The translations under genes were made by a program, and so were the position numbers. From a virus: a stretch of DNA of 21,048 nucleotides. Positions 6,329 through 20,196 of this stretch are shown here, piece after piece (the first letter of the stretch is position 1; every line of letters starts with the position of its first letter). The stretch lies in IMG/VR virus record IMGVR_UViG_3300048592_000834, positions 1 through 21,048 of that record; one strand, written 5' to 3'. The notes beneath the pieces are model-generated. The model ran no database searches. It worked only from the letters and a program-made list of their open reading frames with translations, and was not told the origin of the DNA.

Positions 6329-6346
6329 ACGTTTGCGCGCAAACAC
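6329..6346 (+). promoter_or_regulatory. Palindromic element upstream of gpG (copy A)
   Basis: ACGTTTGCGCGCAAACAC contains the perfect 14-bp palindrome GTTTGCGCGCAAAC (6331-6344). The identical 18 nt occur at 20179-20196 in the same orientation relative to the ParB-like gene. This copy ends 16 nt before ATG 6363 and immediately precedes the GGGGGAGG ribosome site. It is a candidate operator or protein-binding site. Confidence 0.65.
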
Positions 6347-6362: not shown

Positions 6363-6719
6363 ATGCCGGTACGGTTGTTTGATCTGAAGCGGGGGGAGCG
6401 GGAGCTGGTGATCCCGGTGCTGGAGGAGGAGACGCTGCGCGTGATCTACCGGCCGGGGGTGGTGACGCCGGGGTTCGCGGATGCGTTCTGGTTCCAGCCG
6501 GCGGAGTGGATCAGCCAGGTCGTGGTGAGCTGGGACCTCCTGGGGGATGACGGGCTGCCGGTGCCGCTGCGGGCGCTCGACGAGGAGGGGCGGCCCACGG
6601 ACGCGCCGAGCGCGGAGCTGCGGGCGGTGCCGACGGATGCGCTGATGTTCGTGCAGCGGGCGATCAACACGGACCTGCTGCCGGGAAAACGGTTACGGGG
6701 GACCTCCACGCCTGGATAG
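6363..6719 (+). CDS. Tail assembly chaperone (gpG-like)
   Basis: This 118-aa acidic protein (MPVRLFDLKRGERELVIPVL, then VIYRPGVVTPGF, ending LLPGKRLRGTSTPG) lies between the tail tube and tape measure genes, where gpG-type chaperones are encoded. The pair gpG/gpGT coats the tape measure during tail assembly. I chose ATG 6363 because a strong GGGGGAGG at 6351-6358 precedes it; the frame is open further upstream but overlaps the tail tube gene. An in-frame slippery heptamer lies 28 nt before the stop and would yield the longer gpGT product. Position and frameshift support the call more than sequence similarity does. Confidence 0.8.
   Translation: MPVRLFDLKRGERELVIPVLEEETLRVIYRPGVVTPGFADAFWFQPAEWISQVVVSWDLLGDDGLPVPLRALDEEGRPTDAPSAELRAVPTDALMFVQRAINTDLLPGKRLRGTSTPG
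6683..6689 (+). promoter_or_regulatory. Programmed -1 ribosomal frameshift site G GGA AAA
   Basis: In the gpG frame the codons are CCG GGA AAA CGG, so the heptamer GGGAAAA is in the X XXY YYZ register needed for tandem slippage. The lambda G/GT site is GGGAAAG. A -1 shift after AAA (6687-6689) continues at ACG (6689) into an open frame to 6907. No obvious downstream pseudoknot was identified by eye. Confidence 0.85.
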
Positions 6720-17110: not shown

Positions 17111-17136
17111 GCCCCCGGGGATGAGCCGGGGGCTTT
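17111..17136 (+). terminator. Bidirectional intrinsic terminator between converging operons
   Basis: GCCCCCGG (17111-17118) pairs perfectly with CCGGGGGC (17126-17133) over a 7-nt loop, followed by TTT. On the opposite strand the stem is followed by CTCTTTTT. It therefore should end both the rightward late operon and the leftward cassette whose last stop is at 17145. Confidence 0.85.
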
Positions 17137-17144
17137 CGCATGTG

Positions 17145-17456
17145 TCAGTCAGTGGTCTTGCGGGGCCGGCCGCCCTTGCGGCCGTTGGCGGCGCTGGATG
17201 CTGCCTTGCGCTCGCTGCGGATGGAGCCGAGTTGAGCGGCAGCCTCGGACCGCATCAGCGCGGCCACCACCTCGCGCTGCGGCAGAGTGCGGATGCCGCC
17301 GGCGTTGCCCTGCACGTAGTTGCCGCTGGCGAGCTTGATGAGCGCACCGCTATCGCCCACGTCGCGCCGCACGACGCCGAGGGCTTCCGCCCCCTCGGGC
17401 AGGGGCATCATGCCCCAGTACAATTTCCAATTGCCGGACTTGGTGACTGTCAACAT
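17145..17456 (-). CDS. Small protein with basic GRKGGRPRK tail, unknown function
   Basis: A 103-aa leftward protein, third gene of a cassette, with an AGAGGT ribosome site that overlaps the stop of the upstream gene. The first part (MLTVTKSGNWKLYWGMMPLP) is beta-like. The centre GDSGALIKLASGNYVQGNAG looks well structured, and LPQREVVAALMRSEAAAQLG is a helix. The C-terminus (SIRSERKAASSAANGRKGGR, then PRKTTD) is strongly basic with an AT-hook-like GRP core, so nucleic acid binding is possible. I do not recognise a characterised family. It could be an early regulator or a host-takeover factor, or the repressor of its own promoter. Confidence 0.7.
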   Translation of the reverse strand: MLTVTKSGNWKLYWGMMPLPEGAEALGVVRRDVGDSGALIKLASGNYVQGNAGGIRTLPQREVVAALMRSEAAAQLGSIRSERKAASSAANGRKGGRPRKTTD

Positions 17457-17459
17457 GGT

Positions 17460-17615
17460 TTACCTCTGGTTGCGCCACGTCCGCAAGTCTTGAGCGGAGC
17501 GGAAAAACCTATAGCCGCCAACGACCTTAACCTTGTACGGGTAGTCGCGGGCCGCATCCTTGAGCGCAGCGCGGTACTCTTTTTCGGTGCGATAGTTCGA
17601 GCGAGAGATGTTCAT
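17460..17615 (-). CDS. Very small basic protein, unknown function
   Basis: This 51-aa ORF (MNISRSNYRTEKEYRAALKD, then DYPYKVKVVGGYRFFRSAQD, ending WRNQR) lies between the two other cassette genes on the same strand, with its stop 3 nt before the next start. The composition is natural for a protein: a basic amphipathic helix, then strands and a WRNQR end. The ribosome site is weak (AGACAGG). It is probably translated with its neighbours. Confidence 0.6.
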   Translation of the reverse strand: MNISRSNYRTEKEYRAALKDAARDYPYKVKVVGGYRFFRSAQDLRTWRNQR

Positions 17616-17663: not shown

Positions 17664-17957
17664 CTAGAAAAAAAGAGCCTCGGTTTCGACGTTGTACCAA
17701 TCGCTGTCCATCCAAGCCTGTTCGAGCAGGTCGTCGCCGCTGATGCCTTCGGGGTGGTCTACGATTGCGAAGTTGATCGTGATGCCAAGCTCTTTGGCGG
17801 CGGCGTAAGTGTGGTGTCCGTCGCTCAGGATTGCGCAATCGTAAGCCTTGACATCCCAGGCAACCAGCGTCACGCTCTCAGTGTTCGCAAGCTCGGCCAT
17901 CTTGTCGTTGATGATGCTGTTATCGAGATACCGCTGGCTGCTAATGATTGTCGTCAT
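17664..17957 (-). CDS. Small ParB/sulfiredoxin-fold-like protein
   Basis: A 97-aa leftward protein, first gene of the cassette, with a strong AGGAGAG before its ATG and a promoter 46 nt further upstream. The centre ILSDGHHTYAAAKELGITIN resembles the D-G-H-H/R-R-x-x-A-A-x-x-x-G motif of ParB-type domains, here as a minimal version without a DNA-binding helix-turn-helix. It is followed by VDHPEGISGDDLLEQAWMDS and a C-terminal LFF encoded in a T-rich run (CTTTTTTTC). In the ParB superfamily this motif binds or hydrolyses nucleotides (CTP in canonical ParB). Whether this protein does so is unknown. Codon use is less GC-extreme than in the late genes. Confidence 0.7.
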   Translation of the reverse strand: MTTIISSQRYLDNSIINDKMAELANTESVTLVAWDVKAYDCAILSDGHHTYAAAKELGITINFAIVDHPEGISGDDLLEQAWMDSDWYNVETEALFF

Positions 17958-18002
17958 CGTGCTCTCCTGTGGTGGGTCGCTGTCTTACTGTCTTATGGCT
18001 TT

Positions 18003-18031
18003 AGTATAAACCTAACGTTAGGTTTTGTCAA
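18003..18031 (-). promoter_or_regulatory. Sigma70-type promoter of the leftward cassette
   Basis: On the minus strand, TTGACA (18031-18026) and TATACT (18008-18003) are separated by exactly 17 bp. That is a perfect -35 box and a near-perfect -10 box at ideal spacing. Transcription should start near 17996 and read genes 17957 to 17145. In this GC-rich window such a site is very unlikely to occur by chance. Confidence 0.9.
18008..18025. promoter_or_regulatory. Perfect palindromic operator inside the promoter spacer
   Basis: AAACCTAACGTTAGGTTT is an 18-bp perfect palindrome that fills the whole 17-bp spacer and overlaps the -10 edge. A dimeric repressor bound here would exclude RNA polymerase. 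No adjacent obvious repressor gene is visible; the basic protein at 17145-17456 is one candidate. Confidence 0.85.
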
Positions 18032-18051
18032 GGGGTTTTCTGCGCTCTAAT

Positions 18052-18061
18052 CTAACATTAA
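18052..18061. promoter_or_regulatory. Possible secondary operator
   Basis: CTAACATTAA matches the operator core CTAACGTTAG at 8 of 10 positions. Its centre is 40 bp from the main palindrome, close to four helical turns, so cooperative binding on one DNA face is possible. Confidence 0.4.
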
Positions 18062-18077: not shown

Positions 18078-18095
18078 TGTTCTAATTTTAGAACA
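18078..18095. promoter_or_regulatory. Second perfect inverted repeat TGTTCTAA-TT-TTAGAACA
   Basis: Eight-base arms pair perfectly around a 2-bp centre. The sequence differs from the CTAACGTTAG operator, so it would bind a different regulator. It lies upstream (in minus-strand terms) of an AAAGGAGG at 18063-18070. Confidence 0.6.
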
Positions 18096-20178: not shown

Positions 20179-20196
20179 GTGTTTGCGCGCAAACGT
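20179..20196 (-). promoter_or_regulatory. Palindromic element upstream of the ParB-like gene (copy B)
   Basis: Minus-strand ACGTTTGCGCGCAAACAC is identical over 18 nt to 6329-6346 and has the same orientation relative to its gene. It contains the 14-bp palindrome GTTTGCGCGCAAAC. Being next to the ParB-like start, it could be an autoregulatory operator or a parS-like site. Confidence 0.65.

Follow-up and report, generated by a model that had tools for sequence, protein, structure and literature searches.

Sequence comparison places a perfect 18-bp palindrome, embedded in a viral promoter, in a predicted operator family, AACCYA-N4..6-TRGGTT, that sits between the -35 and -10 boxes in phages, plasmids and chromosomes. 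The family is unified by a gene located downstream in the same orientation and encoding a protein with a C-terminal tail of ~30 residues. We propose, at a probability of roughly 0.77, that an autogenous repressor uses the palindrome as its operator: a 103-aa protein would bind it via such a tail and thereby shut off the three-gene cassette in which it is encoded.

The promoter, its palindrome and the cassette

The DNA analysed here as a whole (the window) is a 21,048-base IMG/VR virus record. Its features around the promoter are as follows.

18003-18031, minus strand: sigma-70-type promoter (TTGACA at 18031-18026, a 17-bp spacer, TATACT at 18008-18003)
18008-18025: putative operator, the perfect 18-bp palindrome AAACCTAACGTTAGGTTT, filling the spacer and the first T of the -10 box
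18009-18024: operator core AACCTA-ACGT-TAGGTT, with 12/12 matches to the family operator
18052-18061: secondary half-conserved site CTAACATTAA, of doubtful function
18082-18091: third partial site CTAATTTTAG inside GTTCTAATTTTAGAAC, of doubtful function
17664-17957, minus strand: cassette gene 1, 97 aa, with a DGHH motif (phrog_4807) and the ribosome-binding site CAGGAGAGCACGATG
17460-17615, minus strand: cassette gene 2, 51 aa
17145-17456, minus strand: cassette gene 3, 103 aa, the predicted autorepressor with a C-terminal tail
17157-17231, minus strand: tail module LGSIRSERKAASSAANGRKGGRPRK, residues 76-100 of the 103-aa protein (alignments A1 and A2)
17111-17133, minus strand: intrinsic terminator, an 8-bp all-GC stem followed by CTCTTTTTCT, 12 bp past gene 3

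The original prediction of TTGACA and TATACT boxes 17 bp apart, with a perfect palindrome filling the spacer, was confirmed on the minus strand. The promoter matches the consensus at 11 of 12 positions and is the sole promoter-like site between 16500 and 21048, where 0.4 would be expected from shuffling. The palindrome alone proves little, since perfect palindromes of at least 18 bp arose in 50 of 300 Markov shuffles of 21 kb (about 1 in 6); the unlikely part is its exact placement within the only good promoter, and it is the comparative data that settle its non-random origin. Scanning the window with up to 3 mismatches revealed no further copy.

A related site 40 bp away, which had also been pointed out from the sequence, is indeed present. 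Jointly with the partial site at 18082-18091, it exceeds local shuffles (P 0.0004 for two sites, with the motif picked post hoc), but it is not conserved in relatives. Counting the window, 2 of 52 loci have an extra upstream site, versus 0.68 expected, and secondary upstream sites were rejected as a general feature on this ground. The CC/GG conserved in the operators is absent from both CTAACATTAA and CTAATTTTAG.

The three genes (97, 51 and 103 aa) lie downstream of the promoter on the same strand, between a ParB-like gene and the late genes. Having its own promoter and a terminator just after the last stop codon, the cassette is self-contained. The GC content is 0.46 in the promoter region, 0.54, 0.56 and 0.69 in genes 1 to 3, respectively, and 0.68 in the window. 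Homologues of the 97-aa protein occur in Salmonella phages, some of them annotated as chromosome partitioning proteins. We suspect from sequence similarity that it belongs to a ParB/SerK-like superfamily, which fits its weak match to SerK. The window's ParB-like protein and an 895-aa late protein, used as queries, retrieved no relatives. Pfam gave no match for the 103-aa protein, DUF2442 included, and DUF4160 matched neither the 97-aa nor the 51-aa protein. No TetR, Xre or ribbon-helix-helix DNA-binding domain was found in the predicted regulator with Pfam, NCBIfam or PHROGs.

Several side observations concern cassette cargo and the rest of the window. At L002 5880-6564, TGCGCA-type repeats precede a homologue of the 97-aa DGHH gene and an Xre-like helix-turn-helix (HTH) gene comes after it; there, the DGHH cargo seems to be under a different repressor. 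Homologous cargo proteins of ~72 aa (SDSGLGIGGINNDQS...CxxCGASKNFDGA) are encoded at L009 4098-4313 and by cassette gene 2 of L130, in different operator/tail cassettes, which suggests that cargo and switch travel together. An identical 14-bp palindrome, GTTTGCGCGCAAAC, appears twice in the window, at 6331-6344 and 20181-20194 (0.06 copies expected at up to 2 mismatches). The copies lie upstream of a gene starting near 6364 and just ahead of the start of the ParB-like gene (20167), and the sequence may serve as a parS-like site or a ParB operator. Positions 2-2420 encode a TPR-containing glycosyltransferase of family 2, whose neighbours are a collagen-like protein of Gly-X-Y repeats and head-tail genes.

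Association of the operator family with a C-terminal tail

Searching viral contigs for AACCTAACGTTAGGTT returned 14 matches, 8 of them between TTGACA and a -10 box, and a pattern that included the promoter yielded 21 loci. A small gene with a window-like tail lies near the promoter in L009, L018, L029, L032 and L038, and divergently in L014. The tail consensus common to these loci and the window is LGSxxSxxKAxxSxxNGxKGGRPRK. Four loci fetched with the 103-aa protein alone (L021, L023, L024 and L025) carry the variants CCTAACGATAGG, CCTAGCGATAGG and CCTAGCGTTAGG at the same spacer position. Exact CCTAACGTTAGG in TTGACA promoters was confined to phage contigs; the strict promoter pattern containing it had no match in genome contigs, and chromosomes carry variants. 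Some of the 21 loci have another AT-rich palindrome, TATACTAACGTTAGTATA, which may represent another system. It occupies the promoter spacer in L030, L034, L035, L039 and L041, all AT-rich phage contigs with no tail gene, and probably belongs to a different regulator.

The association was also examined in reverse, with loci fetched by the tail alone. The tail-only alignment A1 gave 80 genome loci and 80 viral loci, 143 of the 160 being non-redundant and ~5 of the 160 lying on contigs that had seeded the tail alignment. With no operator assumed, the top upstream palindromic words were AACCT-N6-AGGTT and ACCTA-N4-TAGGT, both absent from the downstream list. ACCTA ranked first among the 1024 five-base half-sites in promoter spacers, occurring in 29 loci (mean 0.23), with control counts of 2 loci downstream and 1 antisense. 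A perfect AACCYA-N4..6-TRGGTT was present upstream in 42 of the 143 loci and downstream in 1, and permuted half-sites gave a mean of 0.7 (maximum 11); relaxing the requirement to 11/12 matches changed the counts to 73 versus 8. A near-perfect operator is missing from about half of the tail loci. The central dinucleotide of the N4 operators, left out of the scoring, is CG in 25 of 25. The link between tail and operator spans phages, plasmids and many phyla.

The spacing between half-sites follows the class of the tail. N4 spacing was found with 25 of 31 LGSxxS tails versus 0 of 21 other tails (p 1.6e-9, a value inflated by relatedness), and the co-variation is partly shared descent. CPAC-type tails go with N6, most NGSxxS tails of DUF2442 proteins with N5, and GGSxxS tails with N5 or N6. 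The window obeys this rule, combining an LGSxxS tail with an N4 operator. The N-terminal parts of the tail proteins are diverse: DUF2442 accounts for 27 of 104, several of them encoded after a DUF4160-like gene in the manner of toxin-antitoxin pairs, and others have zinc knuckles or AP2, HNH, LAGLIDADG or HicB-like domains. Some are nearly tail only (L142, 40 aa). Given a shared operator and unrelated N-termini, the tail is the natural candidate for reading the operator.

A BLAST search with the tail among named phages and plasmids supplied records outside the earlier sets. In podovirus ctQWt234, TTGACAT-AACCTA-AGCGAT-TAGGTT (N6) stands just ahead of an antirestriction operon whose last gene is a tail gene. 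In a Leptospirillum plasmid and in S. elongatus pANL, the operators are of the N5 type and precede operons with a DUF2442-tail gene. In all three records, the spacing agrees with that predicted from the tail class. A match in an Acinetobacter phage was rejected as a tail, being an internal basic stretch.

Whole genomes were informative about the uniqueness of the site. Genomes of 6.3 Mb and 5.5 Mb each contain a sole perfect N5 site, about 750 bp from the tail gene. A third has two perfect sites, one near the tail gene (about 0.5-0.75 kb over the three genomes) and the other away from any tail gene; in the fourth (G005), the linked site matches at 11/12 and the perfect-pattern search therefore finds nothing. 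The additional operator matches in Planktothrix and in one acidobacterial contig look fortuitous and are without a neighbouring tail gene. The original prediction had suggested searching phage and host genomes for the palindrome to find its regulon; a genome-wide regulon is unlikely, given that bacterial genomes contain the linked perfect site just once or nearly so. Among DUF2442 loci, an operator accompanies 5 of 5 with the tail (all from genomes already in the first set, with the L210 site a weak 10/12) and 3 of 39 without it, all three being weak matches.

Proposed autorepression and alternative explanations

In the proposed mechanism, the 103-aa protein, most likely as a dimer, would contact the two AACCTA half-sites between the -35 and -10 boxes, its C-terminal ~30 residues serving as the DNA-reading part. 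The bound protein would occlude RNA polymerase, so that the cassette would be expressed until its last product accumulates. Binding, dimerisation, repression rather than activation, and its relief are all steps that we infer. Some loci consist of a single gene, the tail gene, about 100 bp from the operator, an arrangement that one would expect of an autoregulator. Comparison strongly backs the earlier claim of a repressible promoter driving a three-gene cassette, but that claim had overlooked both the 103-aa protein as the likely repressor and the self-contained nature of the cassette.

A coincidence of palindrome and promoter would be in keeping with the 1-in-6 odds of an 18-bp palindrome in 21 kb. 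The same sequence nevertheless recurs at the same place in unrelated contigs, down to the unscored central CG in 25 of 25, and we regard chance as having next to no weight. It could also be that a third-party repressor, for example of the TetR or Xre type and encoded by the host or elsewhere in the phage, reads the operator and that tail proteins are frequent passengers. The palindrome does resemble a classical repressor site, half of the tail loci are without an operator, and the window is a fragment outside which other regulators may lie. A passenger role is hard to reconcile with a tail-operator link that holds across phages, plasmids and many phyla, with spacing that tracks the tail class, with a perfect site that is single or almost single in whole genomes and adjoins the tail gene, and with the want of operators in DUF2442 operons that have no tail. 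We consider a third-party repressor unlikely.

Another possibility is that the tail protein binds the operator and activates transcription, or functions chiefly in co-repression together with a cassette partner through conditional cooperativity of the toxin-antitoxin kind. Type II antitoxins commonly repress their own promoter, and toxin-antitoxin partners often modulate this repression. DUF4160-DUF2442 operons have the gene arrangement of a toxin-antitoxin module, and the share of DUF2442 among the tail proteins, several behind a DUF4160-like gene, speaks for such a role. Against it, an operator lying between the -35 and -10 boxes of near-consensus promoters is suited to occlusion and not to activation, and many tail genes stand alone directly behind the promoter. 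Activation or partner-dependent co-repression appears quite improbable, and autogenous repression by the tail protein is the reading that we favour.

The tail itself was matched by no Pfam, NCBIfam or PHROG model. AlphaFold modelled the tail of a DUF2442 protein as a low-confidence helix and that of a 50-aa zinc-knuckle member as two HTH-like helices (pLDDT about 80), and a PDB fold search with the latter model found no match. For the solved DUF2442-like structures 3k8r and 2x8n, the match is limited to the N-terminal domain. The basic end of the tail, GGRPRK, has a weak, non-significant match (E 0.24) to GRIGGRPPK of a DNA invertase; no AT-hook profile match was obtained. It seems on balance probable that the ~30-residue tail is a minimal, sequence-specific DNA-binding module of a new class, which is attached to unrelated N-terminal domains or makes up nearly the whole protein (about 40 aa). 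It would autoregulate phage accessory operons as well as type II toxin-antitoxin modules across many phyla, and the tail subclass would set the half-site spacing.

Relation to known regulatory systems

If correct, this proposal would supply both a function and a DNA target for the tail found on many unannotated phage proteins and DUF2442 antitoxins, and would add one of the smallest repressors known. It would also provide a simple sequence signature for spotting self-regulated accessory cassettes such as the ctQWt234 antirestriction operon. Neither the operator nor the tail letters were found in a relevant context in openly licensed literature; an earlier description elsewhere is possible.

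DUF4160-DUF2442 pairs are reported to be type II toxin-antitoxin systems, including dhiTA of Dickeya dadantii (PMC8198452) and a Thermus plasmid pair (PMC12724237), and the passages on these pairs in the two papers report no operator. The window cassette resembles these modules in being small with the repressor-like protein last, and their tail-bearing DUF2442 versions have the same operator and tail; in contrast, the window genes are neither DUF4160 nor DUF2442. Phage morons, which have their own promoter and terminator, are likewise similar in the separate promoter, the terminator 12 bp past the last gene and the lower GC of genes 1 and 2. Unlike morons, the window cassette has its own predicted repressor, and the GC of gene 3 (0.69) is that of the rest of the window. 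The basic GGRPRK end recalls the AT-hook, which has a GRP core flanked by basic residues, and the Hin-type GRPR minor-groove arm; the match to the DNA invertase is confined to a short basic stretch.

Small autorepressors with spacer operators are known from the Arc, Cro/Xre and TetR types. The tail proteins differ from these in having no HTH, ribbon-helix-helix or TetR family match and in a common part of only about 30 residues; what they would share with them is a palindromic operator between the -35 and -10 boxes, a presumed dimer and autoregulation.
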